In this document: positions 2,691 through 19,312 of the stretch, in pieces
Position numbering within the stretch: the first letter of the stretch is position 1
How the letters are laid out: every line of letters starts with the position of its first letter
DNA from: an uncultured Clostridia bacterium
GTDB lineage: Bacteria; Bacillota; Clostridia; UBA1381
Assembly: GCA_944392335.1 (NCBI GenBank)
Contig: CALXWJ010000021.1
Span: forward strand, 62,001-126,000
DNA length: 64,000 bases
Direction: 5' to 3'
Notes under the pieces: model-generated
Database searches by the model: none
What the model saw: the letters and a program-made list of their open reading frames with translations, nothing else
What the model was told of the DNA's origin: nothing
Program-made: the position numbers and the translations under genes

Positions 2691-3479
2691 TTATACCTGC
2701 CATTCTATTTCCCCCATAAGCATATCATGCCCCTTCTGCTCATCCTTTGGAGGCGGCGTCATATAGTCGCCGTAAAGGGCTGTTAAATAGCCGTCGCAGT
2801 CGGCAGGAACCGGATACAGCGAACCTTCAAACATCAGTTTCTGCTCCCCGCCGAATATTAAGCTTCGCTTCATGACATGTCCGCCCTTGCAGGTTATGAA
2901 CACATATTCGCTGTCATTGCGATGACGCGTTAAAATCCATATGCCGGCGTCCATAAATAAATGTCTTACAGAAATAGGTATTTTTTCCATTAAGAGTTCT
3001 AATAAATTGCGATTATCCTCATATTGTGTCATTTCTGCCATAAGCGTTTTGCGCGCCAGCTTGAATAAGGCAGTTTCAAAGCGGCGCAGCAGTGAACTGC
3101 CGCTCAAGGGAAAAATCGGAAACAGATCGATACATATTCCCCAGTTTATGGGGATATCCTTATAGCGCACAGGGCAAGACCTTGTATTTGCTATGCGGAT
3201 TTTAGTCCATGAAAGCGGAAAGTGCTTTTCGATCTTATAATTTGTTATCATATATGTACTGTCGGATTCCCGCCGGAAAATTTTTATGAGTTTTTCAAGC
3301 TCTGTGCAATATATTATAATATCTATATCGTCGTCCCAGGGAATAAATCCCCGTTCGCGAACCGCACCGATAAGTGTACCTTGAGCCAGGAAATACTGAA
3401 TATTATGTTTTTCGCATATACGTCTAAGCTCATTAAGAGCGCCAAGTTCTTTTTTCTGAATCGATTTTAAAATATCCAT
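2691..3479 (-). CDS. LicD family phosphotransferase, last gene of the exopolysaccharide operon
   Basis: A 262-residue cytoplasmic protein. The LicD core is clear: AQGTLIGAVRERGFIPWDDD with the metal-binding acidic cluster D49-D50-D51-x-D53, as in LicD/fukutin-type nucleotidyltransferase-fold enzymes. Family members transfer phosphocholine, ribitol phosphate or related phospho-groups from a CDP donor onto glycans, so this is probably a decorating enzyme for the polymer made by the operon; the donor is unknown. A GGAGG site lies 6 bases before the ATG, and the gap to the flippase gene is 22 bases. It is the last gene before a convergent plus-strand pair. Confidence 0.87.
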   Translation of the reverse strand: MDILKSIQKKELGALNELRRICEKHNIQYFLAQGTLIGAVRERGFIPWDDDIDIIIYCTELEKLIKIFRRESDSTYMITNYKIEKHFPLSWTKIRIANTRSCPVRYKDIPINWGICIDLFPIFPLSGSSLLRRFETALFKLARKTLMAEMTQYEDNRNLLELLMEKIPISVRHLFMDAGIWILTRHRNDSEYVFITCKGGHVMKRSLIFGGEQKLMFEGSLYPVPADCDGYLTALYGDYMTPPPKDEQKGHDMLMGEIEWQV

Positions 3480-3501: not shown

Positions 3502-5010
3502 TCAAATCCGTTTTTGAAACCTTTTAAGCAAAGCCCAAAATACACGGTTTTTACTATAAAATATCAGTATAACGGCAATAAAAATCACACAAGCCGACAT
3601 ACCGGACAGTATAAGACCAATTATTCCGCCGACAGGTATAAGCCTGCACGCATAATATGCCGAAAAGCAGCCTATAGCTGCAGCACAAAGCTGAATAAGA
3701 TAGTTTACATAATATTTTTTTACAGGCTTATGCAGTGCATATTTATGAACCGCCAAAATCTCCCACCATATGCATACTCCGACCATAGATACGGTTGTAC
3801 CGAACAGAACGCCGTAAATGCCCATCTTAAATACGACCAAGAACAAAAATGATACTGCAAGGTTGACTACAACTTCCCCTACCGCTTTAAGCCGCAGACG
3901 GTTAAAAAGACCTGCCACCTCGATTACAACTATATTTGGCTGTCTCAGCCCAGTGAGAAAAAAATTCAGTATTACAACAAAAGTTATTGACGGAGGCAAA
4001 AGCCAGTCATCGCCTGCCCATATAACTATAAAACGCTCAAGGCATGCCGAAAAGCCTATTGATATAAAAAAATAAAAACAGAAGGTAGCAAAGGCAAATT
4101 CTTCAAACACAGTGTACTTGTGATCGTCGTCCTCCTGCGCCATAAGGCTTCCCATACTGCCCATAACCGAACAAAGCACATTGTATACTACCCTTGATAC
4201 GGTGCTTACCACCACGGAATAATTACTGTATATGCCCATAAGCGTGAGCTTTGCATATGAAATCATAAGATTATCTGTCCCTGTAACAAGCTTTGCTCCT
4301 ATCTTTTGATACATAAGGGAAACAACGCTCTTTTTCAGTATATCGCTATCCTCCTTGAGCAGCTTTTCCTTTTTGTATTTCTTTAAAAAGTGATATTTTT
4401 TATCGCACACCGCACTGATAACAATATTTGCACTGCAGTTGCATACCAGGTTTATAACAAGGTAGCCTATATAGCTGTCAAAACGTATAATGGCAACACA
4501 CTGCAGTATGTACTTAACAACAGCGAAAGAGTCCTCGCTTACGCTGTTTATATAGTTTTGCTGATATGCCGATAACAGAGTCCTTTTGTATGCAAAGAAG
4601 TAGCTCAGCACCGTATTAAGCAGGAACAGAATATAAATAATATTCATATTATCAATATTCACAGCTTCACGGGTAAAAAAGCGCATAAAAGGGATCAGCA
4701 TAGGCCCTATGACCGCAGTTGCGATCCCCAGTATATAATAGACCTTCTTATACATCGCCATAAGGCTTCCGATACGCTTTTCATCTCCGTCTTCAATAGG
4801 CTTATAGAGCGCAAAAGCTACCGATGTACCTATTCCAAGCTCAGTCATGGACAGGATCGTCAGCATACTTTCCATTACCGAGTTGACTCCGAGATACTCC
4901 TGTCCCAGCCTGCGGATAAAAAACCATCTTACAATAAAGCCCAGGAATATTGTTATGATCTGACCTGCAAGAGCAAAGCTGCTGTTTCGCAGCGAATTTA
5001 AAAAACGCAT
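3502..5010 (-). CDS. Wzx-type polysaccharide flippase (MOP superfamily)
   Basis: A 502-residue membrane protein with about 12-14 predicted segments, starting with SSFALAGQIITIFLGFIVRW. The N-terminal segment RRLGQEYLGVNSV and the charged stretch near KKYKKEKLLKEDSD between helices are typical of Polysacc_synt flippases in Firmicutes. These move undecaprenyl-linked repeat units across the membrane for Wzy polymerisation. It lies 12 bases after the HD-GYP-like gene and has a strong AAAGGAGG site. The operon's transferase, polymerase and Wzz-like genes make the Wzx role likely; teichoic acid or O-unit flippases are similar in sequence. Confidence 0.88.
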   Translation of the reverse strand: MRFLNSLRNSSFALAGQIITIFLGFIVRWFFIRRLGQEYLGVNSVMESMLTILSMTELGIGTSVAFALYKPIEDGDEKRIGSLMAMYKKVYYILGIATAVIGPMLIPFMRFFTREAVNIDNMNIIYILFLLNTVLSYFFAYKRTLLSAYQQNYINSVSEDSFAVVKYILQCVAIIRFDSYIGYLVINLVCNCSANIVISAVCDKKYHFLKKYKKEKLLKEDSDILKKSVVSLMYQKIGAKLVTGTDNLMISYAKLTLMGIYSNYSVVVSTVSRVVYNVLCSVMGSMGSLMAQEDDDHKYTVFEEFAFATFCFYFFISIGFSACLERFIVIWAGDDWLLPPSITFVVILNFFLTGLRQPNIVVIEVAGLFNRLRLKAVGEVVVNLAVSFLFLVVFKMGIYGVLFGTTVSMVGVCIWWEILAVHKYALHKPVKKYYVNYLIQLCAAAIGCFSAYYACRLIPVGGIIGLILSGMSACVIFIAVILIFYSKNRVFWALLKRFQKRI

Positions 5011-5022
5011 ATCGGTCCTCCT

Positions 5023-5604
5023 TTAATCAATATCCTTTACTATTTCTTCAAGGCATTCAATAAGCGCATCGTCAAAGTGTCCGCATTTATTTTCTCTGAG
5101 CATCTTAAATATTGTTTCCCGAGACAAGCCCTTACGGTAAACCCTATCCGAATCCAGAGCATCAAATACATCGCATATAGACACTATCCGGACATACATA
5201 GGAATATCTTTTTTTCCCTCATATCCGCCGCCGTCTATCCGTTCATGATGATACCTGCATAGGTTAAATACAAACTCATACTCTTTGCCGCATAACTCGC
5301 CCTCCACCGCTTCGGCTCCCAAACGGGTATGCATTCTTAAGTTATCCATCTCATTTGCCTGCAGCGATGAATCCTTTGTCAGCAGAGAGTTATCAACAAA
5401 CAGCTTTCCGATATCATGGAGAAGAGTTCCCTTGCATATCCAGCCTATCTCGTCATCGTTATAGCTTGTTATACCTAATCTGTTCGTTCTGCGAAGCATC
5501 CTGTGGGCAAGTTTTTTTACACGTAGGCTGTGATAATATGTTTCCGAATGGACTTTTTTAAGTTCATCCATAAGACTATCCAGCTTTTCTGTCATCTTTA
5601 TCAT
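5023..5604 (-). CDS. HD-GYP-like metal-dependent phosphohydrolase (candidate c-di-GMP phosphodiesterase)
   Basis: A 193-residue soluble protein. Metal-binding motifs are LLHDIGK (H63-D64) and YHHERIDGGGYEGK (H119-H120), followed by VSICDVFDALDSDRVYRK. This is the HD-GYP arrangement, with the GYP triplet read as GYE. HD-GYP enzymes hydrolyse c-di-GMP, which suits an operon with a c-di-GMP riboswitch, an EAL-like domain and a neighbouring GGDEF gene. Start: an upstream ATG at 5619 exists, but the ATG at 5604 has an AGAGGA site and overlaps the preceding stop by four bases, so it is preferred. There is no sensor or response-regulator domain. Hydrolysis of another phosphoester cannot be excluded, given the altered GYP. 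Confidence 0.8.
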   Translation of the reverse strand: MIKMTEKLDSLMDELKKVHSETYYHSLRVKKLAHRMLRRTNRLGITSYNDDEIGWICKGTLLHDIGKLFVDNSLLTKDSSLQANEMDNLRMHTRLGAEAVEGELCGKEYEFVFNLCRYHHERIDGGGYEGKKDIPMYVRIVSICDVFDALDSDRVYRKGLSRETIFKMLRENKCGHFDDALIECLEEIVKDID

Positions 5605-6545
5605 GCTTTTCCTCTCCATCTGATCTCAAAAATTTTTTTTACCGCAGATGACGGCATATGCAGTAAAAGAAAGGTTATTAGCTTATCTTTTTTTAACTTT
5701 GGATCACTGCCGATTTCTCTAAAATACTTAGCGGCTTCTTTTTTACGTCCCTCTATTATATAATGTCTGCAGCGGCGCATAGTAAACCATTCCATAACCT
5801 TTTTGATATTTTCCTTTTTTGACTCCGGTATGTCCTTATCTTCGTATAACTCAGAAACACTGTCAAAAAAACTCCAGTCCGGGTCGAAGGAATTGGCTTT
5901 TGTCGCTGTCGAGTTACCTTTAATGTATGTTGCTGTTATGCGGCTTGTAAGCACTACGGGAAAGTATGCCGCTATACGAAGGGACAGCTCAAGATCCTCC
6001 CCTATCCTGCATCCGACTGTAAATCCGCCCGTTTTATCAAATGCCGTTCGTGATATACATGTAGTTATAACAGTAAACATCTTTACAGACTTATTCTTAT
6101 AGTACTCCTCAAAAAAATTGTCCAAATATACCGTTTCTGACCGATCCTTGAAAAAACTGCATTCACTTATTGTCCTGCCGTTAACAAGCATAGTCCTGGT
6201 AAAGCTTCCGTATAAACCGGCGTCAGGATATCTTTCTGTAAGATCGCGCATTACCTCAAGATGATTTTCATGCCACACATCATCCGCATCCAAAAAGGCT
6301 ATATAGCTGCCCGTTGATGCTGTAATACCATTGTTGCGCGCTGCGCTCACACCAAGATTTGACTGGGTCATGATACGTATCTTCGGATGATCCTTATATT
6401 TTTCAAGAACCTTTCCGGTATTATCGACGGAACCATCGTTAACTATTATCAGCTCCCAGTCCTTTTCACGCTGGTTTAAAACGCTTGCTATCGCGTTATC
6501 TAAAAATTTTGCTCCGTTGTACACGGGCATGATCACTGAAAACAA
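5601..6545 (-). CDS. Family 2 glycosyltransferase
   Basis: A 314-residue GT-A enzyme. It opens with FSVIMPVYNG and contains ELIIVNDGSVDNT (first Asp of the nucleotide-sugar site), GVSAARNNGI and the DxD-type FLDADDVW. It adds a sugar to the lipid-linked repeat unit on the cytoplasmic face. Start: the open frame extends to a GTG at 6551, but that codon touches the GGGGGA ribosome-binding site; a TTG at 6545 lies 6 bases from it and is preferred. The stop overlaps the HD-GYP-like gene by four bases. Donor and acceptor sugars are unknown. Confidence 0.87.
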   Translation of the reverse strand: MFSVIMPVYNGAKFLDNAIASVLNQREKDWELIIVNDGSVDNTGKVLEKYKDHPKIRIMTQSNLGVSAARNNGITASTGSYIAFLDADDVWHENHLEVMRDLTERYPDAGLYGSFTRTMLVNGRTISECSFFKDRSETVYLDNFFEEYYKNKSVKMFTVITTCISRTAFDKTGGFTVGCRIGEDLELSLRIAAYFPVVLTSRITATYIKGNSTATKANSFDPDWSFFDSVSELYEDKDIPESKKENIKKVMEWFTMRRCRHYIIEGRKKEAAKYFREIGSDPKLKKDKLITFLLLHMPSSAVKKIFEIRWRGKA

Positions 6546-6560
6546 GCACACTCCCCCTTT

Positions 6561-7901
6561 TTAAATAAAATAAAAAATCATAAAGGCCCAGTCTATAAAA
6601 AAATCAACCGTGAACCCAAAAACTATAAAGGCAAAGTTGAAAATCAGCTGAAGTATCTTTAAATCCTCCGTTTCATAGCCGCCGGTTTTGGAAAAATGCC
6701 TCAATATACGATATACAAATACGCCGAACAGAGGTATGTATATCAACAGCGTACCCAAAACTCCGAAATTAAGCAGAGCCTGGATATATGAATTATGGCA
6801 GGCTATAGATATTACACTATAATCAATCGCCATAACCGTTATGACGCTTCCGCCTATAAGCTGACCGATAATCCCTTTTGAAAAGAATATACCCATAGCC
6901 TCTGTCCAGATGTCATAGCGGTCGGTTGTAAGCAGATCCCAGCGTCCCCGTGGAATATAAGAGAGTTTTTCGTTTATTCGTATGATCAATCCGGATATAG
7001 CCTCTATCTCTCTAAGCTGCGGAGTTGTCAAAATGACTACAACCGCAACCGCTGCCGCGACAAATACTGCTGTTAGTATTATTATGGACTTCATTCTGAA
7101 TTTAAGAATTATGTACAGTGTAAGCAATACAGCCAAAATCATCAAGGCTGAGATGCTTGCCGTCTGTACAAGCATTATCCCAAACAGCACCAATGCCGCA
7201 GCCCTGAGCCATTTGGGTATTCCCTTGACCGCAATCGCCGATACTATACATATACTGTAAAAAAGTCCGGCAAAATTAGAATCACTCAGTGCGCCGAAGT
7301 TTCTGTTAACGGTCTGGGCGCCCGCACCTGCAACATTAATATCCACCGACACATCAGTATTCGTCCAGCCGTATATACCCGAAGCAACTCCTCCGAGAAG
7401 AAAGGCATAGATAAACTTACGGAATAATCCGGGGTTATCGATGATCTTGAGCAGTATAATATAAGCAAGAGCGCAGTCAACTATTACATTAAGCCCTACC
7501 CTGTAGGATTCCAGCTGCGGCATTGCAAACAGGCTGTGAAGCATAAACACAAAGAGTGCAGGAAAATATGCCATTCTGAATTTGGTTTTAGGCAGATCCA
7601 ACAAAAATCTTAAAACCACCATATAGGAGTAAATTCTAAACACAGGCGTATCACCCAACAGCATCCTATAACGCATATACATAAAAAGAGCTGTATACAG
7701 GTAGAAATTTTCATCGAAAAAACAGACCGCTATGCAAAGGATCAAAATAACCGAGGCATAAGAGGTAAGGTCCGGCAGCGGGCCGGGGATAAGACAGCAT
7801 AAAAACCCGAGCAGAAACACTGCATCAAATATTCTGCCTCTCAATGTATTATTCCCCCGGACGTTAAGTCGGCTGCCGAGATCAACTATAATCTTGTTCA
7901 T
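6561..7901 (-). CDS. Wzy-type O-antigen/exopolysaccharide polymerase
   Basis: A 446-residue protein with about 11-12 membrane segments. The Wzy/WaaL region is seen near residues 320-400: TTDRYDIWTEAMGIF in the long external loop, then ACHNSYIQALLNFGVLGT. Such proteins join undecaprenyl-linked repeat units outside the membrane. The start overlaps the stop of the deacetylase-GT4 gene by four bases (ATGA). Together with a flippase and Wzz-like proteins this defines a Wzx/Wzy-dependent pathway. A ligase role is less likely in an organism that seems to lack lipopolysaccharide. Confidence 0.85.
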   Translation of the reverse strand: MNKIIVDLGSRLNVRGNNTLRGRIFDAVFLLGFLCCLIPGPLPDLTSYASVILILCIAVCFFDENFYLYTALFMYMRYRMLLGDTPVFRIYSYMVVLRFLLDLPKTKFRMAYFPALFVFMLHSLFAMPQLESYRVGLNVIVDCALAYIILLKIIDNPGLFRKFIYAFLLGGVASGIYGWTNTDVSVDINVAGAGAQTVNRNFGALSDSNFAGLFYSICIVSAIAVKGIPKWLRAAALVLFGIMLVQTASISALMILAVLLTLYIILKFRMKSIIILTAVFVAAAVAVVVILTTPQLREIEAISGLIIRINEKLSYIPRGRWDLLTTDRYDIWTEAMGIFFSKGIIGQLIGGSVITVMAIDYSVISIACHNSYIQALLNFGVLGTLLIYIPLFGVFVYRILRHFSKTGGYETEDLKILQLIFNFAFIVFGFTVDFFIDWAFMIFYFI

Positions 7902-9859
7902 TGAAGTAATCCTTCCACTAATCTGTCAAATTTTTCTATTTCTTTCTCATTTCCGTAATCATGGGTTTGTATATATTCACGCATTTTATCAAGGCATTTT
8001 GGATTTTCCAACACTGATTTGAGACCTTGATAAAGAGCATAATCGTTATTTTCAAAAATCAGGCCGTCGATGCCGTTTTGTATTTGCTCTCCCGCCGAAG
8101 TGTATCGCGTGACCATAGGTACAAGACCCATAATAAGCCCTTCGGTCACAACCATCGGCTTACCCTCGTGATGCGACGGGAGCAGCATTGCATCAAAGCT
8201 CTTCATATACGGTATTGGGTTTTCCCTGACCCCAATGAGATATATCACATCTTCCAATCCATAAACGGCTATAAGCTCTCTAAGCCGTTGTTCATCACGG
8301 CCCTTTCCGATGATTACCCATTTAACATTTTCTGTCAGACCATCGGCTTTCAGCTGTGCAAAAGCCCTTACAGCCCTGTCAAGCCCTTTGTGTTCAAAGC
8401 TAATCCTTGCCACTGTTAAAATTTTTAAATATCTGTTCGGATCATCAAAGGGAAAAGTAACATCCCCTGTGCTCCTGCTTCTTATGTATTCCGATGAAAG
8501 CAGGTTTGGAATAAAGTATGTCTTGTCTTTATGCTCAGGATGCTGCCGGACATATGCTAAGCGGCAGCTCTCGCTTACAAAAACAAGGGCATCCGCCTTG
8601 TCAAATGCTTTTTTATCGATTTTATAACTAAGTCCGGATTTATCATATTCGAGGTGATGCCATGAAATTTTCTTTTTAGCCTTCACCCGCGTCATAACAT
8701 AGTTAAGGCACCAGTCAAATTCATAGGCAACAGCTACGTCGTACTCCTTGCTGTTGGGAGTAGAATACCGGCATCCCTGCTTTGACATTATCTGTACAGC
8801 CATTCGTTTATTATGTTTAACTTTTTTATAATACATTCCCTGCGCTGCCGCTGCTATATAGCGTGGTGAACACAGCTTTTTAATCACATTTCCGACAGAA
8901 TACTTTTTGTGCCGCTTTCCCTGCGGCAATATATTTATCCCGGACTTTATACCGCTGATACTGCCGTTTTCATAAAACATAACATCCACATCGTATTTGT
9001 CGGTGTCAAGAGCGTTAAGAAAGTTAACCAATGATGTCATCGCCCCTCCGATATGAACCTGGATAAAGCATACAAGAAGCTTTATCCGTCTGCCGATTAC
9101 ATCCTCCAAATGCAATCCGTTTTTCTCGATCCACTCGTGTGTCACAAATGGGTGAGCCTCCGGCAGTGTATTATCTGTCAGCACTCCGTTAATATAATCG
9201 GGATGCGTCATAAGCTCAAGAGAATTGCTTATTTTTGCTTTGTCTGACCGTTCAAAATCCTGTACAGACCCGAAATAATCCGTCGTCCCTATTCGCTTTT
9301 TATCAATTTTAAGGCGTTTAATCATAAAATTAAAGATATTTTTATAAAGGCTGAATAGAGGGGAAAAGCTCCCTTTTGGAATATTTCTGCTGATACGGAC
9401 GGTTTTGAACCCATATTTTTTTAAAAGCTTTCTTATTTCTGTATAAACGCTTAAATATACATGAGTATAATTGTGTGAGTCGGCATGCATAAGTGTGAAG
9501 CCCATATCTATATATTTTTTGATTTGCGCTTCGACCTCGCAGCGTATGGCCTTTCTTGCGGATCTATCGAGGTATATACGCGCACGCAGCGGTATATGGA
9601 AGGTACCGGTAAAACAACCCCTGTCATCGCACAGGTCTGAGCATGCACACTCATTTGTAAGAGGTCTGCCCTCGGTGAGATTGATATGCAATCCAACCTT
9701 GTCAAAAAAACCCCTCTCCCGTGCAAGTTGTACCGCAGCCTCGCAGCCCGGCATATTAACCATTATGGTAGTACGGTTTATAAGACCCTGTTCAAAACAG
9801 TCGGCTATTGCACTGCTGACACTGTCGGAATAGCCGAAATCGTCTCCGTTTATAATCAT
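7898..9859 (-). CDS. ChbG/YdjC-type carbohydrate deacetylase fused to a family 4 glycosyltransferase
   Basis: A 653-residue two-domain protein. Residues 1 to about 255 are a ChbG/YdjC deacetylase: INGDDFGYSD (D6-D7), GLHINL with H58, and MHADSHNYTH with H125 and H129, matching the Asp-His-His metal set of the family. Residues about 260-653 are a GT4: the N-terminal lobe has QVHIGGAMTSL, and the C-terminal lobe has KILTVARIS, IGKGRDEQRL and SHHEGKPMVVTEG with the GT4 E-x7-E pattern. A GGAGGAG site lies before the ATG. No stop or frameshift separates the domains. The natural inference is one enzyme that adds a sugar and de-N-acetylates a neighbouring or the same amino sugar. I know of no characterised example of this fusion. 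Confidence 0.85.
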   Translation of the reverse strand: MIINGDDFGYSDSVSSAIADCFEQGLINRTTIMVNMPGCEAAVQLARERGFFDKVGLHINLTEGRPLTNECACSDLCDDRGCFTGTFHIPLRARIYLDRSARKAIRCEVEAQIKKYIDMGFTLMHADSHNYTHVYLSVYTEIRKLLKKYGFKTVRISRNIPKGSFSPLFSLYKNIFNFMIKRLKIDKKRIGTTDYFGSVQDFERSDKAKISNSLELMTHPDYINGVLTDNTLPEAHPFVTHEWIEKNGLHLEDVIGRRIKLLVCFIQVHIGGAMTSLVNFLNALDTDKYDVDVMFYENGSISGIKSGINILPQGKRHKKYSVGNVIKKLCSPRYIAAAAQGMYYKKVKHNKRMAVQIMSKQGCRYSTPNSKEYDVAVAYEFDWCLNYVMTRVKAKKKISWHHLEYDKSGLSYKIDKKAFDKADALVFVSESCRLAYVRQHPEHKDKTYFIPNLLSSEYIRSRSTGDVTFPFDDPNRYLKILTVARISFEHKGLDRAVRAFAQLKADGLTENVKWVIIGKGRDEQRLRELIAVYGLEDVIYLIGVRENPIPYMKSFDAMLLPSHHEGKPMVVTEGLIMGLVPMVTRYTSAGEQIQNGIDGLIFENNDYALYQGLKSVLENPKCLDKMREYIQTHDYGNEKEIEKFDRLVEGLLQ

Positions 9860-9904: not shown

Positions 9905-10897
9905 CTATTTACGCAGTGTGAATATGCGCCCTATAATTACCGCGCTGTATGGCGCTACGTAAAATAAGGCATAAACAATTCTGCGCTTTATCGGTATTCC
10001 ATGTCTTTTTATCATGCTTTTATAGCTGCTCCTGTAAATTTCAATATATTTTCCGCTGACGCAGTCGGTATCTCTTTCTTTGGCGTTAAGCCGCATTTGC
10101 TCATTGTAACGAAGGATAATATCCGTACAGATTTTCTCACGGGTACGAAGTACCTGAAGGGGTTTATTTTCCCGTATAAAAAAATCGATTCGTTCCTTAT
10201 ATGCTTTTAACCAATCATACCTATGCGGATTGTTTTTAAGCCTTTTTGCTATATTGTCCATTATGCTGCCGCTATGCTGAAAATAATAGTACAGCCTTTC
10301 GCTTGTAAATGCAGTTTTATGCGCATTATATACAGCACGGTAAACAGTAAATTCATCCTCGTTCCATACTCCGTCAGGAAACCTGATATCTTTAAATATC
10401 CCGCATCTGAATATCTTTGCGCATGCAAACGATTTCAGGTCATAGCCAAGAAGAGCCTTTTCGCTGTCCGTTTCATAAACACGGGGATTATTTTCGGTAT
10501 CGGAAAAGACTCCGTCTTCTCCCTTTTCATAGCCGCACTGCGCAATATCACAGCCTAACCCTTCACAAATAGCAATCATTTTTTCAGCGTAATCAGAACG
10601 GATAAAATCATCTGAGTCAAGAAAGGATATATAATCATCCTCCCCCGCTGTTTTAAGGGCAAGGGTCAGCCCGACGTTTCTTGCATCTGACAATCCCCCG
10701 TTTTCCTTATGTATTACATGTATATTTTTGTACATACGTGCATATTCGTCACATATTTCGGGGCACCCGTCGGGGGAACCGTCGTCTACAAGAATAATCC
10801 CGACTCTTTCATACGTCTGCTCGAGCACCGAACGTATACAGCGGTGTATATATCTTTCAACATTATATACAGGTATTATAAAATACAGGTTTTTCAT
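9905..10897 (-). CDS. Family 2 glycosyltransferase (EpsJ/CpsJ-like)
   Basis: A 330-residue GT-A enzyme: YFIIPVYNVERYI, GIILVDDGSPDGCP, NGGLSDARNVGL and FLDSDDF are the canonical GT2 blocks. The C-terminal part (KRLKNNPHRYDWLKAY and later) resembles capsule glycosyltransferases that transfer galactose, galactofuranose or similar sugars, but specificity cannot be read from sequence. A GAGGAG site precedes the ATG. The metallophosphoesterase gene ends 14 bases upstream and the next gene starts 45 bases downstream, the widest gap inside this operon but still without an evident promoter. Confidence 0.87.
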   Translation of the reverse strand: MKNLYFIIPVYNVERYIHRCIRSVLEQTYERVGIILVDDGSPDGCPEICDEYARMYKNIHVIHKENGGLSDARNVGLTLALKTAGEDDYISFLDSDDFIRSDYAEKMIAICEGLGCDIAQCGYEKGEDGVFSDTENNPRVYETDSEKALLGYDLKSFACAKIFRCGIFKDIRFPDGVWNEDEFTVYRAVYNAHKTAFTSERLYYYFQHSGSIMDNIAKRLKNNPHRYDWLKAYKERIDFFIRENKPLQVLRTREKICTDIILRYNEQMRLNAKERDTDCVSGKYIEIYRSSYKSMIKRHGIPIKRRIVYALFYVAPYSAVIIGRIFTLRK

Positions 10898-10911: not shown

Positions 10912-11766
10912 CTACCTGTCAAGAGTTATCAGTACGACCTCCGGTTGGTTAAAGTATCTTTTTTTACTCGCATTTTGGTCGCATCCGCCGCTTACAATCA
11001 TGGCCGCTGCCCCCTCGGAATAAAAGCCGTAATCGTATGCGGGAAAGATGCTGTTGTCGTATATGTCATGACCTATCACACCGCCAAGAAACGGAAGACG
11101 GATTATACCTCCGTGCATATGCCCCGACAAAATCAGGTCAACTCCGATATTTTTAAGATATGGATACATATCCGCACGGTGATTAATAAGAATGGAAAAT
11201 TCCTCGCTGTCCTCCGGAATAAATCCCTCTATTTTGCTGATAACATCCTCCCGGACCTCTTCCTCCCAAAGTTCATTTTTCCCGCTGTCTTTGGCGCCTA
11301 TTAGCCAGATTATATCTCCGTCCTTTTTTATCTTTTTATAGTCATTTTCAAGCCAGACTATACCGACGTCCCAAAGATTGCCTATGATATGTTCATACTC
11401 CTCATTCTGCGATTCATGATTTCCCGAGACAGCATACATAGGTATTGTATCGCCGACGTTTTCTGCAATCTTTTTCGTTTCCTCAAAGCTATAGCCGGGA
11501 AGCTGAACCATATCGCCGCAAAATATTATAACATCCGGGCTTGTATTCTCTATATGCGCCAATATCTGTTCTGCAAAGGGTGCTTCATGCAGGTCGGCTA
11601 TTAAAAATATTTTATATCCGTCAAAATTGTATGGGACGTCATTATGCCGGAATGTATATCGCGTGAGCTTTACGGTTTTATTCATAGCTGTATTTACAGC
11701 AAGCGCTGCTGCTGACGCAAGAATAAGGGCTAATACGATAATAACCAACGTTTTTATTTTTTTCAC
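10912..11766 (-). CDS. Membrane-anchored metallophosphoesterase (YkuE/YaeI-like)
   Basis: A 284-residue protein with one N-terminal membrane segment (residues 6-25) and a calcineurin-type fold outside or at the membrane. All metal motifs are present: D58-x-H60, G84-D85, GNHE at 115-118, and GHMHGG with H216 and H218. YaeI/YkuE relatives hydrolyse phosphodiesters or pyrophosphates of lipid-linked intermediates, so recycling of undecaprenyl pyrophosphate or trimming of UDP-sugar or lipid products is a reasonable guess. The GTG start overlaps the stop of the Wzz-EAL gene by four bases (GTGA), so translation is coupled. It is an unusual member of a Wzx/Wzy operon. Confidence 0.85.
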   Translation of the reverse strand: MKKIKTLVIIVLALILASAAALAVNTAMNKTVKLTRYTFRHNDVPYNFDGYKIFLIADLHEAPFAEQILAHIENTSPDVIIFCGDMVQLPGYSFEETKKIAENVGDTIPMYAVSGNHESQNEEYEHIIGNLWDVGIVWLENDYKKIKKDGDIIWLIGAKDSGKNELWEEEVREDVISKIEGFIPEDSEEFSILINHRADMYPYLKNIGVDLILSGHMHGGIIRLPFLGGVIGHDIYDNSIFPAYDYGFYSEGAAAMIVSGGCDQNASKKRYFNQPEVVLITLDR

Positions 11767-13973
11767 TCTTGCATTTCCTTTCTTTTAAGTTCTTCCGGTT
11801 TACCATAGAAGTAGCCTTGTTTATAATCAAAACCCAGTCTTGTAATAAGCGCATCCTGAGAACCTGTTTCAACGCCGCAGATACAAGATTTTATCCCGTG
11901 ATTTCTGCACTCATCAATTATGTGTATGAAGTTTGTTTCCATATCCTTCTCAGCCTTTATGAAGTCCTCGTCGCTGGAAGCATAAATGTCATTATTAAGG
12001 CTGTCAAGACTCATTTTAATATATTTCGGCTCAAGTACCCTAAGTATCTCTTGCTCTTCATACGTATTTTCAAACCTGTCTATGCATATGCTTATACCCA
12101 TCTTTTCAAGCAAGGTTATATCCTCAAGCGTAGACGCAATGTCATATACCTCAAGCTCAAGGCATACACACTCCGGGGGAATATGATTTTCGGATATATG
12201 CTTTATAATTATATCGTTTAACGCAAAGTCCCGAATCTGTCCGGAGGGACAGTTGACATGCACAACGGGAGCCCTTCCTTTTTTCTTTCCCATATATGCA
12301 ATATCGGCACAAACATTTTTGATTATCCAGTCGTTAAGCTGCCAGAATATTCCAAAGTCTGATATGCAGCCTATTATCTTTGCCGGAGACACCATACCAA
12401 GCTCTTCGTTGCGCCATCTGATAAAGATTTCAAGATGTTCTCTTTCGGTTTTGCCGCTGCTTACCATCGGTTGATACACAAGAGTAAATTCATCAAAATC
12501 CTTTAGATACTGATCATATAAAAGCTGATGAAGTCTGTCCATACCCGATACGTCTATTTCTGCCTTTGCTTCCTTTTGATCATCCTCTGCCTTTGTTTTT
12601 GCCATGATGTTTTTCAGCAGTTCTCTTAGAAGCACTGCAATAACCAGCACCCCGAATGTAAGCACTATCATGAATAGCGCTATGAGGTTAACAGGTCTGT
12701 CCGCAGACACCTCCGGAAGAATCAGGTACTGCAGATCACTGTTGATCTCCATGTTGAACAGCTCGCTTATTGAAAGGTTTGCAATTTCGCTGTACTCATT
12801 TGAAAGAATAAGTATTTCCGAAAAAATTTCATCATTTTCCGCAATCAGACGATCCTTTGTTTCACGAGGAACAGTGTCGTTTGTATAATCGTCTATTATA
12901 GCATTGTAATAGTTTATGGTATGCATGGCATCAGTAGCTGCTGCCGCGCGGTCCGCATAAGACAAAACAATATTGTCATATGTGTTTATATGTTCCTCTA
13001 TGTTGTAATCCTCGATCACATCCTGATCACGGTTATTGGATGCGTCAATATCGGTTTGTGTGCGATGGGCCTGGTTATAAAGCCCTGCCGCCTTATAAGG
13101 ATCGTAAAATGTTGTGATCTCATTTTTGTAATTGTCTGCAATCGTGTTGTCGACCATCATGGTTTCAGTAAGATCCTGTACCTTTGTCTGATAGCTTTTT
13201 ATTATCATCTCAGTATCCTTTGCAAGGTTTCCCGCACGAATATTACCATAATATTTTGCATGCTGAACATCCCTTATATGCTCATACAGTTCCATGATCT
13301 CGGCAAAGGAATACCCCGTACGTTTTGACCGGAACTCGGGAAAATCGGCGGCAAGGGTTTCCAGATAGGCAATAATCGAGTCAAGATTTTCGCTCATGGA
13401 ATTGGAAATCTCAATATAGTCGGCAGAGGAATTGTCCGCGGTTTTTGCAAAATCGGGTATTGTCCTTTTGTTGTAGTATTTATCCAGCAAAAAATCATCG
13501 TATTCTTTTATAATGCTGCTGAACATTTTTACCCCAAACTCATCTCCCAAAGATGCATCATATGTAAACTTCATTTCATATTCTGTTGTGACCGCATCGT
13601 ATTTTTCGCCTAACAGGGCGGCAGATTCGGAAACCTCCTTGTCTAAGTCGGTAATTACCTTTTCAATGGTAATATCCTGACGTATACCCTTAACGCTCAA
13701 TTTTTTGCCGGCATCCAGCCCAAGATTTTCAAGAGCCCCCTGTATAACAACAGGGTTTTGGATTTCATAAGGATCCAATTCACTTACCCCATCGGGTGCA
13801 AGCCCCTCTGCAGCTCCGTCGTAATTATATTTAAAGCCGAGCATGCAAGTGTATGTTTGCATTGAGTTTACGGCATAAACGGTCAAAAGCCCGACTGCAA
13901 GAGAAAGGGCAATCATATGCAGAATGTATCGGCGAATAATATTGATTATATCTCTTATACTTAAATATTCCAT
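11763..13973 (-). CDS. Wzz-like membrane protein fused to a degenerate EAL domain (candidate c-di-GMP receptor)
   Basis: A 736-residue protein. Membrane segments near residues 17-37 and 434-456 enclose a large helix-rich external region, the topology of Wzz chain-length proteins. After the second segment comes a cytoplasmic EAL domain, from about residue 490 to the end. Kept EAL residues: E515 (EIF in place of EAL), the Asn of VNCPSG, the first Glu of LELE, D632, K653, E702 and Q719. Changed: the second Asp of DDFG is R633, loop 6 reads DRFENTYEE, and the Glu of the usual TE pair is Val. Loss of the metal-site Asp and loop 6 predicts weak or no hydrolysis, hence a binding role like LapD or FimX. 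Start: the ATG at 13973 has GGAGG 8 bases upstream; a further ATG at 14012 is less likely. Confidence 0.85.
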   Translation of the reverse strand: MEYLSIRDIINIIRRYILHMIALSLAVGLLTVYAVNSMQTYTCMLGFKYNYDGAAEGLAPDGVSELDPYEIQNPVVIQGALENLGLDAGKKLSVKGIRQDITIEKVITDLDKEVSESAALLGEKYDAVTTEYEMKFTYDASLGDEFGVKMFSSIIKEYDDFLLDKYYNKRTIPDFAKTADNSSADYIEISNSMSENLDSIIAYLETLAADFPEFRSKRTGYSFAEIMELYEHIRDVQHAKYYGNIRAGNLAKDTEMIIKSYQTKVQDLTETMMVDNTIADNYKNEITTFYDPYKAAGLYNQAHRTQTDIDASNNRDQDVIEDYNIEEHINTYDNIVLSYADRAAAATDAMHTINYYNAIIDDYTNDTVPRETKDRLIAENDEIFSEILILSNEYSEIANLSISELFNMEINSDLQYLILPEVSADRPVNLIALFMIVLTFGVLVIAVLLRELLKNIMAKTKAEDDQKEAKAEIDVSGMDRLHQLLYDQYLKDFDEFTLVYQPMVSSGKTEREHLEIFIRWRNEELGMVSPAKIIGCISDFGIFWQLNDWIIKNVCADIAYMGKKKGRAPVVHVNCPSGQIRDFALNDIIIKHISENHIPPECVCLELEVYDIASTLEDITLLEKMGISICIDRFENTYEEQEILRVLEPKYIKMSLDSLNNDIYASSDEDFIKAEKDMETNFIHIIDECRNHGIKSCICGVETGSQDALITRLGFDYKQGYFYGKPEELKRKEMQE

Positions 13974-13974: not shown

Positions 13975-15420
13975 TCAGATACCTCCGACCTTTGTCTGCT
14001 GTATGCTGGCAAGGAGCTTCTTTTTGCGGCGCAGCATGACTCTGTCCTGTATGACGCTTATGGCAATACAGATTATAAACATAACTACAGCTCCGAGCAG
14101 GAATGCTCCTCCCGCGCCTACTATCAAATCTGTAGAAAATACCTCCCGTTCCGTAACATCTGCGGTTATATAATTTTCATTTGTTTTGTTATAATATTCC
14201 TCCACAACGCTTATTGCCCTGTCTGCAAGATCCTCGTATTCGGTTTTAAGCTCATCCAGATATTCCTCGCATCTTGCACAAAGTCTTTCGTATTCCTCGC
14301 CGCTTTGGGCAACACTTCCGTAATGTGAAATTTCCTGATTCAAAAGCTCTATTTCAGCGCCGTATTCGGCGGTCATCTCGTCAGCGTCGTGTTTCTGTTC
14401 CACGATAGTATCAAAAGCGGTTTTTGGACGCGCCTGATACAGTCCCTGGGTCTCGTCCCGTACAACATTGATAAGATTTTCGGTAAATGTATGGTCGTAG
14501 TTGTCCATAGCATACTTGTTTACCAATGCCCTGTCGCTGTATTTGCTGAACTGGAGAGAGTTGTTTTCAAGATTAACAAACAGCTTGTTTAGATTGATCT
14601 CTGCATCACGGGAAATGGCTGATGATTCAATAAAGCTTGCTATGCCGTCAAGTTTATTTGTAACAAGCAGTTCATAATCGCCTATGATATCCTTCAATGC
14701 CGTATCTTCTCCAACCGAAACAAAACCCGGTGATTTGTTCTCAAGTTCGTTAAGATAATTTATGGTGGCATTAACTCTTACCCTGTACTGCTGCACCATT
14801 TCCTTATAATCATATCCAGACAGATCGTCCATAGCCACCAAAGCCTTAAACCCGCCTATGCCTCCCGAAAATTCAGCTATACGATCCCTGTTGACCTCAA
14901 CAAGCGCTTCGAGGAAATCGCTACTGTAATCCGGAGAAAACAGTCTTTTTAATAAGCTGTTATTGCGATAATCATGCATTTGTATGTATGTTATTCGATA
15001 CTCATTAGCAACATAACTGTAATCGTTGCCTTCGCTGCGGGCAGATGATACGGATGAGCCGGCAGAGTTTTTAAGATAGCTGTACAAAAAGAGCTTATCC
15101 TTTATGTCCTCTACGGTATAGCTTTGATATTTCCCGTCCTCCTGCATAAGCTTCAGAGCCGCTTCAATTTTTTGGTCGTCTATAAGATCGTATATCGTGA
15201 ACCTTTCTCCGTCCGGATAGCAGGAGGACGCGATCTCGGGATATGTAAGCACAATGTGCACCCTTGCGGAAGCATATTCGCTGTATACGACCTTCCCGCA
15301 GTAAAACAGGGCAAATAATGCTCCTACCACGAACATAACAAGGCCAAAGCGTTTAAATTTTACCAGACGTTCCCTGTAAAATGCCCTTCGCAGGCTGTTG
15401 ACATGTTTAATTATTTTCAC
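13975..15420 (-). CDS. Wzz/polysaccharide co-polymerase-like membrane protein
   Basis: A 481-residue protein with one membrane segment near residues 25-47 and another near 443-467 (GGAFLLGAVVMFIICIAIS), enclosing about 390 external residues rich in coiled-coil helix (for example AEYGAEIELLNQEISHY). This is the Wzz/PCP topology, although the Wzz domain itself is only weakly recognisable. Such proteins set chain length by assembling around Wzy. It ends one base before the start of the Wzz-EAL gene, so the two are translationally coupled and may form a hetero-oligomer. No BY-type tyrosine kinase gene, the usual partner in Firmicutes, is present. Confidence 0.72.
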   Translation of the reverse strand: MKIIKHVNSLRRAFYRERLVKFKRFGLVMFVVGALFALFYCGKVVYSEYASARVHIVLTYPEIASSCYPDGERFTIYDLIDDQKIEAALKLMQEDGKYQSYTVEDIKDKLFLYSYLKNSAGSSVSSARSEGNDYSYVANEYRITYIQMHDYRNNSLLKRLFSPDYSSDFLEALVEVNRDRIAEFSGGIGGFKALVAMDDLSGYDYKEMVQQYRVRVNATINYLNELENKSPGFVSVGEDTALKDIIGDYELLVTNKLDGIASFIESSAISRDAEINLNKLFVNLENNSLQFSKYSDRALVNKYAMDNYDHTFTENLINVVRDETQGLYQARPKTAFDTIVEQKHDADEMTAEYGAEIELLNQEISHYGSVAQSGEEYERLCARCEEYLDELKTEYEDLADRAISVVEEYYNKTNENYITADVTEREVFSTDLIVGAGGAFLLGAVVMFIICIAISVIQDRVMLRRKKKLLASIQQTKVGGI

Positions 15421-16808
15421 TTAACGGACACCTCCTCTTCTTGGTCTGCAACTGTCTTTATCTTAAAATCGTCTTCTCCTTCTGCCGATGACTTTAAAAA
15501 AATTATTTTCGTAGTTAAAAGTATTATCTTTAAATCAAGCAGAGGCGAATAGTGAGTTATATAATACAGATCGTAATATGTTCTGTCATGAATATATGTG
15601 GAATACCTACCGTATACATGAGACAGACTCGTCAGACCTGCCTTTACCTTGAACCTGTCATCGTAACGTTCTATCTCATTTTCAAACTGTTCAACAAATA
15701 CGGGTCTTTCAGGTCTTGGCCCAACTATGCTCATATCACCTTTAAGTATGTTTATGATCTGCGGCAGCTCATCAAGCCTCATTGCCCGGAGTATCTTTCC
15801 TACCTTTGTTATCCTCGGGTCGTTCTTTTCGGCAAATTTAGGGCCGCTGAGCTGTTCGGCATTAGGTACCATCGTTCTGAATTTATAAATTTCAAATTCA
15901 CGCTTGCCGCGTGTGTAACGGGTCTGCTTGTAAATTAACGGGCCGGGGGACGTCACCTTTATTGCCGCTGCTATTACCCCCATAGGGATAATAGCCACTA
16001 TTAATCCCAAGGCGGCAAAAACAATATCCATCGCCCGTTTTAAAAACAGTTCCGCCGTATTAAGCTCTGTTTTAGGCATATACAGCGTGAGAATATCGTC
16101 AAAGCATACTATCTTTGAGTTGGTTTTACCCACATCTACCATTTCGGGAACAATAAACAAATCCATATTCAGCTTAAGTGCGGCGTTGACCGCGGTATGG
16201 TATATCTCAGTGCTGAATCCGTTAAGGACGCATACGGCATCAAAAAGCGGAAACTGTTCATCTACAAAACGGCTGAATTCCTCAGGCGTTTTATTTTCAA
16301 TATTTTCATACCATGAGCCGTACTTTCTCAAAACGCCGTATTTTATCCTCTTCATACGATGAAAGTTAGACCGGTCAATATCTATTATTAAAAGCCTTGG
16401 TTGACTGTAACAGCTTTTGCTGATTTTTTCAAAAAGACAATCAGCTCCGAAAACACAGAGAATATTCACAAATGAAAATACAGCATCAAATGCCAGACGT
16501 ACACCGTCTCTAAACAGAACAAGGTTTATTATACACATGATAACAAACATATATATCGCCGAAAGGATTGTTGATACGGTCTTTTCATACAGACCTGAAA
16601 TAAGCGCCGAATATTTTTCCAAACACAACATAAAGCAGAGCATTCCACATATTTCTATTATATTTAAAAACATCATGCTGCGCATTCCGATTGGCCCTTG
16701 TTCGGGCATAATAATCCAAAACAAGACCGCAGTTATCAAGAGTACGGCGCAGTTGATCAAAAAACTGTATTTACCTTCTGTGCGCATATTACGCGTTTTC
16801 TTTTTCAT
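15417..16808 (-). CDS. Polyprenyl-phosphate sugar-1-phosphate transferase (WcaJ/EpsL-type initiating enzyme)
   Basis: A 463-residue protein. The N-terminal half carries about four or five membrane segments and a CoA-binding-like central region (residues about 140-250). The C-terminal domain is the bacterial sugar transferase core: a membrane re-entrant helix, KRAMDIVFAALGLIV, SPGPLIYKQTRYTRGKREF, KFRTM, then RLDELPQIINILKGDMSIVG and PRPERPVF. It starts the repeat unit by moving a hexose-1-phosphate from UDP-sugar to undecaprenyl phosphate. It overlaps both neighbours by four bases. It is the second gene of the operon. Confidence 0.92.
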   Translation of the reverse strand: MKKKTRNMRTEGKYSFLINCAVLLITAVLFWIIMPEQGPIGMRSMMFLNIIEICGMLCFMLCLEKYSALISGLYEKTVSTILSAIYMFVIMCIINLVLFRDGVRLAFDAVFSFVNILCVFGADCLFEKISKSCYSQPRLLIIDIDRSNFHRMKRIKYGVLRKYGSWYENIENKTPEEFSRFVDEQFPLFDAVCVLNGFSTEIYHTAVNAALKLNMDLFIVPEMVDVGKTNSKIVCFDDILTLYMPKTELNTAELFLKRAMDIVFAALGLIVAIIPMGVIAAAIKVTSPGPLIYKQTRYTRGKREFEIYKFRTMVPNAEQLSGPKFAEKNDPRITKVGKILRAMRLDELPQIINILKGDMSIVGPRPERPVFVEQFENEIERYDDRFKVKAGLTSLSHVYGRYSTYIHDRTYYDLYYITHYSPLLDLKIILLTTKIIFLKSSAEGEDDFKIKTVADQEEEVSVK

Positions 16809-17674
16809 TTTTTTACATTCTCCTTTTTTATGCAGTTAATCGTCCTTTCCCGGATTATTCTGAACAATTTGGAAAACATAATTATATAAGGCCTTGAATA
16901 TACCAATGCTCTAAATAACATATTATCCATTCCCCATACTGGTAACGCCTCTTTTAGTGTCCCCGATACTCGTCTGTTTGCTGAAAGCCTTTTTGAAAAG
17001 GATAATCCGCCTCCTGTCAGGGAGGTATCGCCGCGGGAATAGTGATACAATATGTCATTTGTAAAATAATAGCTGTTCACGTTATGAAAAAGCCGTATAC
17101 AAAAATCCAAATCCTCAGCAGTTTTCAGCATGGTATTGAACCTAAGCCCACTTATAAGGGATGTTCTAATCAGCTTCATACAGACATGATTCATATTTAT
17201 ACCTATCATCATCCGAATATAAACCCTGCGCAGTTTTTCGCCCTTTAAAAGAATATTATTCCTAAATGCCCCCTTAGGCAGGATATGACGTCCCCCCGGC
17301 ATATCGTATATAAAGCGGCACTGGACTACATCGGCGCCATGCTGTACAGCACAACCATATAAGACTTCAAGCATGTTTTCCTCCCATGCGTCATCTGCGT
17401 CCAAAAAGGCAGTATACTCAGCATCAAGCATTGCAAGAGCCTTGTTTCGTGCCTGTGCAACACCGCCGTTTTTTTTATTAATAATGTATACAAACCGGTT
17501 GTCCTTATCTGCAAATTTTTTTATGATATCGTTACTGCCATCAGTAGACGAATCGTTTACGATAATAGCATGCCACTGTGAAAAGGTTTGATTTACAAGG
17601 CTTTGAAGGCATCTTTCGATATTATCCTGCTTATTATAAACTGGCACTATAACCTGTATTTTATATTGTTTCAT
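16805..17674 (-). CDS. Family 2 glycosyltransferase, first gene of the exopolysaccharide operon
   Basis: A 289-residue GT-A enzyme: QVIVPVYNKQDNI, AIIVNDSSTDGS, NGGVAQARNKAL and FLDADDAW. Start: the frame stays open to 17767, but that extension runs through the terminator and riboswitch; an ATG at 17674 with a GGAG site 7 bases upstream gives the normal GT2 N-terminus. Its leader carries the c-di-GMP-I riboswitch and intrinsic terminator, so this gene and the eleven behind it are expected to respond to c-di-GMP. The stop overlaps the sugar transferase start by four bases. Confidence 0.9.
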   Translation of the reverse strand: MKQYKIQVIVPVYNKQDNIERCLQSLVNQTFSQWHAIIVNDSSTDGSNDIIKKFADKDNRFVYIINKKNGGVAQARNKALAMLDAEYTAFLDADDAWEENMLEVLYGCAVQHGADVVQCRFIYDMPGGRHILPKGAFRNNILLKGEKLRRVYIRMMIGINMNHVCMKLIRTSLISGLRFNTMLKTAEDLDFCIRLFHNVNSYYFTNDILYHYSRGDTSLTGGGLSFSKRLSANRRVSGTLKEALPVWGMDNMLFRALVYSRPYIIMFSKLFRIIRERTINCIKKENVKK

Positions 17675-17702: not shown

Positions 17703-17743
17703 AAATTAATAAAGGCTGCAACATTAAAATATATGTTGCAGCC
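17703..17743 (-). terminator. Intrinsic terminator of the riboswitch expression platform
   Basis: On the minus strand an 11-bp perfect stem (GGCTGCAACAT / ATGTTGCAGCC, 17743-17714) with an 8-base loop is followed by TTTATTAATTTTA. The first six bases of the 5' arm (GGCTGC) are also the 3' end of the c-di-GMP aptamer, so the two structures compete. Ligand binding should then block the terminator (ON switch); the direction is inference. Confidence 0.85.
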
Positions 17744-17815
17744 GATCGAGCATATGATATAAATCACTTAGCCATCTAAACTTTGCGTCTCCGCCTTTCG
17801 ACGAATTTGCCTATT
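17738..17815 (-). ncRNA. Cyclic di-GMP-I (GEMM-I) riboswitch
   Basis: Minus-strand sequence shows the GEMM-I core in order: GGCAAA (17811-17806), a hairpin UUCGUC/GGCGGA capped by a GAAA tetraloop (17799-17796), GACGCAAAG (17789-17781), and a second helix bearing the tetraloop receptor GCUAAG with its UAUGC partner (17754-17750), ending in CGGCUGC. The receptor keeps its closing pair as G-C where the consensus has C-G, a compensated change. It sits between a strong promoter and a terminator in the leader of the exopolysaccharide operon. I read it by eye; a covariance-model search against Rfam RF01051 would confirm it. Confidence 0.92.
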
Positions 17816-17834
17816 AAAATAACCATATATATTT

Positions 17835-17863
17835 ATATTACCATTTATTTCAATAGTTGTCAA
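17835..17863 (-). promoter_or_regulatory. Promoter of the exopolysaccharide operon
   Basis: Minus strand: a perfect TTGACA (17863-17858), a 17-base spacer and TAATAT (17840-17835). Transcription should begin near 17828, some 15 bases before the riboswitch core. It lies in the 128 bases between the GGDEF gene stop and the riboswitch core, so the operon has its own start site. Confidence 0.85.
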
Positions 17864-17929: not shown

Positions 17930-19312
17930 CTAAAAAGCAATAATCCCGGAGCTGCCGATTATATAATTGTCACGTCCGCGTTTCTTAACAGTGTAAAGCA
18001 GACGATCCGTCTCCCTATATAAATCCTCCACCGATTTATCAGATGCAGCAGGCACAACACCTGCACTGCAGGACAGGCTGTGATTATTTACACTGATGGA
18101 ACGTATTTTTTCCATAAACAGCTTCATATCCGACTCCAGCTTTTCTTCGGATACAGGCATATAAATAAAGACTGCAAACTCATCCCCGCCGATCCTGCCT
18201 ATAAAGCCGTTTTCCCCGAAGATTTCTTTGAGATGATGGGCAACAAACATCAAAATACGATCCCCTTCGGGATGACCGCAGCTGTCGTTAATCTCTTTAA
18301 AATAATCTATATCAACCATGATAAAATATCCGTAAAAATCCCCCTCCGGGTCTTGTTTGTCCAAAACCTTCCTGCACGCCTGAAAGAAAGCTCTTCGATT
18401 CATAACATCTGTCACCACATCCATCCCCGCTTCGTGATCCATATACATAGAATATTTACGGTTAAGCATCAAAAACACTGCAACCAAACACATTAACGAG
18501 AGTATTCCCACAATAAACTGTATTTGCAGATGAATAAGGTCGGAATAAACTGCATTGGTCAAATTAATTCCGTTTTGGCTGAGGACTCTGAGCATCCTGT
18601 TTATAAAATATACCCCTACTGCCAAAGACAGAAAAACAGTCACCAATATGCTTACAACTAAAACAAGAGTGTGATAGCTCCCTCCCAACCGGAGACGCTG
18701 CGCCTTCTCCACTTTGCAACAAAATTTCTTCCAAGCATCGGATTGCTCCCATCTCCACAGCAGCACGACAATAACCGATGTAAATATATCTGTAATATAA
18801 TTATTAACATTATAAATTCCGTCTAAAGCGTGCAACGCACTATAGCCGGAATCCGGAAACAGCACCCCCATAAAGCTATATACCAAAAAAGAGTGGATAA
18901 ATCTCCCGAGGAATGAGACGATAAATATCCAAAGTCCCTTAAAAGACATCCGTTTAGCTGCCATATATAAAATTCCTATCAACAGCCCAAAAAGAATCCT
19001 GCTGCCCACACTAAACAATATACTTTCCAAGGGGAAGCCGCTCATGCTGGGAGAAAACAGCTGATCTATATCCGTTACATAATGAGCTCCGGCTTTCCAC
19101 ATGCTGGATATCCCGAATACAGCGCCTAAAATAACCGCTTCGGGCAAGCCGATCATTGCGCCTGCCAGCATAACAGGAATATAGGCAATAGTCATGGAAA
19201 TAGGTTCTATATGTATATACCCAATAAATGAAAATGACATCAGCATTTCTATCGATACTAAAATCAGCAGCAAATAAAAACGCATATTTAAATTTTTAAA
19301 TATAATTTTCAT
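17930..19312 (-). CDS. Membrane diguanylate cyclase (ECF-S-like membrane domain plus GGDEF)
   Basis: A 460-residue protein. The N-terminal part has about five or six membrane segments and resembles ECF transporter S-component folds (IPVMLAGAMIGLPEAVILGAVFG). A further pair of segments flanks a short external loop near residues 218-280. The cytoplasmic GGDEF domain begins near residue 300 with DVVTDVMNRRAF; VDIDYFKEIND and an intact GGDEF at 375-379 predict active c-di-GMP synthesis. The inhibitory I-site RxxD is absent (GENGFIGRIGGDEF), so simple product inhibition is unlikely. It lies directly upstream of the riboswitch-controlled operon on the same strand. The membrane region may sense a small ligand. 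Confidence 0.9.
   Translation of the reverse strand: MKIIFKNLNMRFYLLLILVSIEMLMSFSFIGYIHIEPISMTIAYIPVMLAGAMIGLPEAVILGAVFGISSMWKAGAHYVTDIDQLFSPSMSGFPLESILFSVGSRILFGLLIGILYMAAKRMSFKGLWIFIVSFLGRFIHSFLVYSFMGVLFPDSGYSALHALDGIYNVNNYITDIFTSVIVVLLWRWEQSDAWKKFCCKVEKAQRLRLGGSYHTLVLVVSILVTVFLSLAVGVYFINRMLRVLSQNGINLTNAVYSDLIHLQIQFIVGILSLMCLVAVFLMLNRKYSMYMDHEAGMDVVTDVMNRRAFFQACRKVLDKQDPEGDFYGYFIMVDIDYFKEINDSCGHPEGDRILMFVAHHLKEIFGENGFIGRIGGDEFAVFIYMPVSEEKLESDMKLFMEKIRSISVNNHSLSCSAGVVPAASDKSVEDLYRETDRLLYTVKKRGRDNYIIGSSGIIAF

Follow-up and report, generated by a model that had tools for sequence, protein, structure and literature searches.

A polysaccharide co-polymerase-like protein with a degenerate EAL domain in Clostridia, probably gated by c-di-GMP

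Synthase-type polysaccharides such as cellulose, Pel, and Pss are directly controlled by c-di-GMP, and the usual view of Wzx/Wzy assembly puts it under tyrosine phosphorylation of the co-polymerase. The locus studied here raises the question of what an EAL domain does on a protein that resembles such a co-polymerase. The window, i.e., the whole 64,000-nucleotide stretch that was analyzed, comes from a 3.64 Mb genome of an uncultured Clostridia bacterium (99.5% complete) and encodes P0001, a protein in which a region similar to polysaccharide co-polymerases (PCPs) precedes an EAL domain. The sequence-only reading of this protein had proposed that c-di-GMP acts on chain length or export from inside the polymerase complex, in place of a tyrosine kinase.

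Domain architecture and predicted fold

The P0001 gene starts with ATG at position 13973 and ends with a stop codon at 11765–11763 (Table 1). The entire architecture is preserved in 14 full-length orthologs, and this is not a chance open reading frame. The AlphaFold2 model comprises a helix at residues 6–37, a mainly helical ectodomain with a small α/β base, a second helix at residues 428–463, a low-confidence linker, and an EAL fold. Together with the Pfam match to the EAL domain (residues 494–726, E 1.3e-31), it bears out the initially noted order of two membrane segments around a helical external region, followed by EAL. The arrangement of the domains in this full-length model (12 sequences, pTM 0.41) is not trustworthy.

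Since a fold search with the whole model returned EAL structures almost exclusively, residues 1–460 were modeled separately (12 sequences, pLDDT 78.4, pTM 0.56). In a Foldseek search of the PDB with this model, places 1–11 are all occupied by Wzc and WzzE, with E from 6.5e-7 to 1.4e-2. The best VIA-align match of the PCP part is also Wzc, with a Z of 11.9, which for a helical protein is supportive and not decisive. At the profile level, a 23-row PCP alignment of the P0001 family matches eight canonical kinase-paired CapA proteins over 111 N-terminal columns (hhalign 97.3%, E 2.1e-11). Pfam, its Wzz model included, has no match within residues 1–460 of P0001, and the Wzz matches in its relatives are sub-threshold (best 23.1 bits against a cut-off of 25.5, E 9.4e-5); a sequence-profile search of the PDB with the PCP part gave chance helical matches only. 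Of the two domain assignments made from the sequence alone, EAL is recovered by Pfam and Wzz, in P0001 itself, is not, while Foldseek and hhalign place the external region with PCPs and not with an unrelated structure. As predicted by these models, residues 1–460 fold like PCPs. P0001 shares with Wzc (PCP-2a) and with the CapA/CapB, CpsC/CpsD, and YveK-type PCP-2b proteins two membrane helices, an α/β base, and long helices in the predicted fold, but its ectodomain is much longer than that of CapA.

Gene cluster and absence of a local tyrosine kinase

The genes are packed as tightly as in an operon: the stop of P0002, the PCP-A partner, is at 13975, one base ahead of P0001, and the phosphoesterase gene overlaps the P0001 stop. 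The gene order in most loci of the window clade is a family 2 glycosyltransferase (GT2), the initiating transferase, PCP-A, PCP-B-EAL, the calcineurin-like phosphoesterase, GT2, GT4, the Wzy-like polymerase, GT2, the HD-GYP-like protein, the flippase, and the LicD-like protein. An initiating transferase, a Wzx-like protein and, just under the Pfam cut-off, a Wzy-like protein are thus found in the same cluster as the PCP pair. Whether the clade is of the EAL, GGDEF-like, or domain-less type, the calcineurin-like phosphoesterase is encoded adjacent or close to the pair (the window, L097–L103, L107–L109, and L112), with a constancy that no regulator matches. The reading frame matching the YdjC-like fusion of the window is only about 400 aa long in several orthologous operons.

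Table 1. Features of the P0001 locus (positions in the window)
Feature	Position	Strand	Evidence or remark
LicD-like phosphotransferase, last gene of the conserved operon	2691..3479	-	
Wzx-like flippase	3502..5010	-	PF01943
HD-GYP-like phosphohydrolase	5023..5619	-	HDIGK...HHERIDGGGYE; only HD_5 domain in the genome
Family 2 glycosyltransferase	5601..6551	-	Sequence, synteny
Wzy-like polymerase/ligase	6561..7901	-	PF04932, 31.6 bits, just below the cut-off of 31.7
YdjC-like deacetylase fused to group 1 glycosyltransferase	7898..9859	-	
Family 2 glycosyltransferase	9905..10897	-	Sequence, synteny
Membrane calcineurin-like phosphoesterase	10912..11766	-	Adjacent or close to the PCP pair in every clade
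PCP-B-EAL fusion protein P0001, 736 aa	11763..13973	-	ORF, Pfam, AlphaFold2
Degenerate EAL domain of P0001, residues 494–726	11796..12494	-	Pfam, VIA-align, site table
PCP-like part of P0001, residues 1–460 (TM1, ectodomain, TM2)	12594..13973	-	hhalign to CapA, Foldseek, sub-threshold Pfam Wzz in relatives
PCP-A partner P0002, 481 aa, of the P0001 family but lacking a cytoplasmic domain	13975..15420	-	PCP profile match, conserved tandem pair
Initiating polyprenyl sugar-phosphate transferase	15417..16808	-	PF02397, TIGR03025
Family 2 glycosyltransferase, first operon gene	16805..17674	-	Likely start ATG at 17674
Intrinsic terminator, 11-pair (expression platform)	17714..17743	-	5' arm overlaps aptamer 3' end
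c-di-GMP-I riboswitch aptamer	17734..17821	-	RF01051, 64.4 bits (gathering 35); only one found in the genome
Promoter-like TTGACA-17-TAATAT	17835..17863	-	In front of the riboswitch
Membrane GGDEF protein, likely diguanylate cyclase	17930..19312	-	Intact RIGGDEF motif; the genome has two GGDEF domains, this one included

A BY-kinase gene is adjacent in all nine canonical CapA loci examined, i.e., six fetched for comparison (L128–L133), L118, L119, and the window genome's own on contig C82. On the other hand, none was found within 30 kb of the PCP pair on the same contig in the 46 pair-bearing genomes (95 genomes scanned), nor in any PCP-pair locus read. No BY-kinase at E 1e-25 was found in 23 of these 46 genomes, several of which are incomplete. 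That the window genome has no tyrosine kinases at all was considered and rejected, as one ordinary short CapA and BY-kinase pair is encoded on another contig (L105:8561-10341). The suggestion that EAL stands in place of the kinase therefore agrees with the kinase-free locus and has to be qualified for the genome, as well as for the sister proteins, which carry a degenerate GGDEF domain or nothing.

Distribution and evolution of the fusion

Matches to the PCP profile were observed in 46 of 95 genomes of the order, in 54 of 391 drawn from the class, and in few from the rest of the phylum; among the matches at class and phylum level, a handful are CapA proteins of the ordinary short type. The long form occurs as a tandem A and B pair at nearly every locus. 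The genome survey recovered 14 full-length PCP-B-EAL proteins from at least six families (f1, f19, f20, f30, f54, and f73), all in a single clade. The option that EAL is the only domain used was rejected because of the sister clade, in which a degenerate GGDEF-like domain occupies the same place at the PCP-B C-terminus; other proteins have no domain there, and hence the extra domain is not essential to PCP function.

The tree of 61 proteins has one origin each for the EAL and GGDEF types (support 96/90 and 100/99). To remove a possible bias from the domain columns, the tree was rebuilt on the PCP part, with the same outcome (98/97 and 100/98). The sister of the window protein, from genome G340, belongs to another family, and the operon may thus also move between lineages.

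The GGDEF-like motifs of the sister clade read YNGSDQF, YNGSEQF, YNGVGQF, YNGGKQF, or YNGNGSF, and the I-site is absent. These degenerate domains at the PCP-B C-terminus, without active-site or I-site motifs (L009–L029 and relatives), are often followed by a long charged low-complexity tail, most pronounced in L080 (880 aa). At two loci, a family 2 glycosyltransferase domain precedes PCP-A in a single protein of about 800 aa (L102:10232-12646 and L103:10136-12541), an alternative connection between the pair and synthesis.

Residues kept and lost in the EAL domain

The predicted EAL fold matches the EAL domain of MucR (VIA-align Z 25.7), with Z values of about 25 to MucR, MorA, and FimX. FimX, with a catalytically dead EAL that serves as a receptor, is among the closest known systems.

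The ligand and metal-1 residues are kept in P0001, namely, Q501, E515, R519, N574, E606, D632, K653, E702, and Q719 (Q161, E175, R179, N233, E265, D295, K316, E355, and Q372 in RocR numbering). Four other positions are lost relative to RocR (E268 to V609, D296 to R633, D318 to S655, and E352 to C699) and loop 6 is rewritten to FENTYEE, so that the full catalytic set of an active EAL phosphodiesterase is absent. The sequence-only reading had listed E515, D632, K653, E702, and Q719 as kept, R633 in place of the second Asp of DDFG, and loop 6 as rewritten; all of this stands in the residue table, and the losses at V609, S655, and C699, which it had overlooked, are added here. In ProE, the residues E422, D450, and E506, equivalent to E268, D296, and E352 of RocR, yield nearly or fully inactive proteins when mutated to alanine, whereas R332, N387, and E509 contact c-di-GMP (PMC7290235); P0001 has lost the equivalents of the former three (V609, R633, and C699) and kept those of the latter. 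Both the residue comparison and the ProE mutants thus support a domain in which the pattern for binding is retained and several residues essential to catalysis are gone.

Over the 14 fusions, invariant columns make up 19/217 of the alignment and 9/13 of the functional positions (P 2.2e-8). The nine retained ligand and metal-1 positions are the same in 14/14 proteins, while most other columns vary. The equivalent of RocR E268 is absent from all 14, including the basal L086 (genome G120). At the second Asp position, L086 keeps DDFG, L006 and L085 have DN, and the 11 window-clade sequences have R, K, or Q. Cysteine at the RocR E352 position (C699, window positions 11877–11879) is fixed in 11/11 window-clade orthologs, a pattern that speaks for repurposing rather than drift. 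This invariant cysteine, which replaces a catalytic Glu, could conceivably have a redox or metal role. Read together, these patterns indicate that metal site 1 and the ligand contacts are constrained and metal site 2 is gone, and the EAL domain of P0001 is probably an inactivated enzyme domain that senses c-di-GMP.

c-di-GMP components around the locus and the nature of the ligand

The window genome contains one EAL domain, one HD_5 domain, two GGDEF domains, and one c-di-GMP-I riboswitch; a genome-wide search for PilZ gave no match. All these components except one GGDEF domain are situated between window positions 5023 and 19312, i.e., within 15 kb. The riboswitch at the operon start and this clustering of nearly all recognizable c-di-GMP machinery of the genome are new relative to the sequence-only reading, and its c-di-GMP interpretation is strengthened by the riboswitch, the HD-GYP-like protein, and the diguanylate cyclase of the cluster.

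The riboswitch matches the c-di-GMP-I covariance model over its full length, and the terminator is placed ahead of the first operon gene. As the ligand-bound aptamer and the terminator are mutually exclusive, the ligand should permit transcription, and we infer ON polarity from this architecture. Riboswitches were observed near eight EAL-fusion loci, the window's included: ahead of the operon at L032, L035, L104, L136, L138, and L140, and downstream of the pair at L137. The overlapping aptamer and terminator hairpin in L032, L035, L140, and L137 was read by eye and not scored. Riboswitches are also present at L097, L103, and L109, all three from the domain-less clade, and some EAL-fusion loci, e.g., L033 and L034, have neither a riboswitch nor a cyclase nearby. 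Among the genomes of the order that have the pair, 6 of 12 riboswitches are no more than about 12 kb away from it, which has a probability of roughly 1e-9 by a hand estimate at about 1% chance each. Intact GGDEF proteins are also found near the pair in genomes G048 and G239. The HD-GYP-like protein, with HDIGK and HHERIDGGGY motifs and E instead of P after GY, matches the HD-GYP protein 4mcw in the PDB (4.9e-19). Taken together, the arrangement suggests that expression of the cluster and operation of its products answer to one signal.

The GGDEF-like clade and G303 have separate EAL proteins encoded in the same clusters (L100:365-1744, L108:15636-17000, L135, and L137), and those checked in L100 and L108 are catalytically intact by residues. 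In G088 (L135), two EAL proteins flank a c-di-GMP-I riboswitch together with an intact GGDEF protein.

Other readings of the domain were weighed against this evidence. It is unlikely, though the best of these, that the EAL domain binds no nucleotide and is a structural or docking module, e.g., for a sugar transferase or polymerase. In its favor, several active-site residues and loop 6 have been rewritten, and the sister proteins have in that place either a GGDEF-like domain that lacks the active-site and inhibitory-site motifs or no domain; against it stand the nine ligand and metal-1 positions, invariant while most columns vary, and the riboswitch, cyclase, and HD-GYP-like protein in the same cluster. 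We regard as improbable a receptor for another nucleotide, such as pGpG, cGAMP, or c-di-AMP. The pocket is changed, and a cGAMP-specific phosphodiesterase ranks second among the PDB matches of the HD-GYP-like protein, but the full-length c-di-GMP-I aptamer and the intact upstream GGDEF protein point to c-di-GMP. Finally, a phosphodiesterase of weak or conditional activity, sensing as well as degrading c-di-GMP, is about as improbable, for despite the conserved metal-1 ligands, K653, and Q719, and DDFG in the basal L086, the window clade has none of the ProE E422, D450, and E506 equivalents, and the first of them is missing even from L086.

Discussion

We consider it likely that P0001 is a c-di-GMP-gated PCP-2-type co-polymerase, in which the kinase is replaced by a non-hydrolyzing receptor EAL domain and the same ligand acts via the riboswitch; ligand binding, lack of hydrolysis, ON polarity, and gating are all inferred. 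P0001 would be the regulatory half of a two-gene co-polymerase, working with the Wzy-like polymerase and Wzx-like flippase of the operon. Its EAL domain sits where Wzc or CapA/CapB have the controlling cytoplasmic tyrosine kinase, and, with phosphodiesterase chemistry presumably lost, it is expected to bind c-di-GMP with one metal; the Arg or Lys at the metal-2 position could, speculatively, substitute for the second cation. Ligand binding or altered EAL dimerization may be transmitted through TM2 to the ectodomain and so license polymerization or export. One level up, c-di-GMP would open transcription of the operon via the leader riboswitch. The messenger may be supplied by the membrane GGDEF protein encoded just upstream and removed by the HD-GYP-like protein.

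Somewhat more tentatively, we lean toward a Clostridia class of kinase-free co-polymerases, in which an EAL or GGDEF-like domain, repurposed from a c-di-GMP enzyme, replaces tyrosine phosphorylation in controlling polysaccharide assembly and, in the EAL branch, is coupled to the c-di-GMP riboswitch of the operon as a two-level gate.

In common with Wzc and the PCP-2b systems, the cluster encodes an initiating transferase and Wzy-like and Wzx-like proteins, and a regulatory cytoplasmic domain is attached to, or acts through, the PCP. Unlike in Wzc and PCP-2b/BY-kinase systems, this domain is EAL and not a kinase, no kinase is encoded nearby, and two PCP proteins stand in tandem. Dead EAL or GGDEF domains that serve as c-di-GMP receptors have been described, two of them in polysaccharide operons of Firmicutes. 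PdeB of Lactobacillus acidophilus, like P0001, is a membrane-anchored degenerate EAL protein encoded in such an operon; it has no catalytic residues, keeps an ExLxR-type motif, and binds c-di-GMP, but it is anchored by a membrane-targeting segment and is thought to act on a cellulose-type synthase and is not a co-polymerase (PMC6123363). YdaK of Bacillus subtilis is a membrane c-di-GMP receptor derived from a degenerate enzyme domain, encoded in an exopolysaccharide operon and fed by a membrane cyclase, but that domain is a GGDEF with an I-site, on four membrane helices and with no PCP part (PMC7064775). LapD uses a catalytically dead EAL as a receptor and relays a cytoplasmic signal through the membrane to an external domain, whereas its architecture is HAMP-GGDEF-EAL, with KVL in place of EAL, and its output is protease capture and not polysaccharide synthesis (PMC3032553). 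Neither YdaK nor LapD is a co-polymerase.

Passages of a recent review of capsule chain length tie PCPs to kinases and c-di-GMP only to synthases (PMC12220298). No description of a Wzz or chain-length determinant fused to EAL or GGDEF was found in the open-licence literature, which is weak evidence of absence.

If the preferred reading of P0001 is true, a PCP with a built-in c-di-GMP receptor would join both modes of control, and through it the messenger would act directly on chain length or export in gut commensals. The sister clades with an EAL domain, a GGDEF-like domain, or no domain constitute a natural experiment, in which a single machine has had its control domain exchanged.
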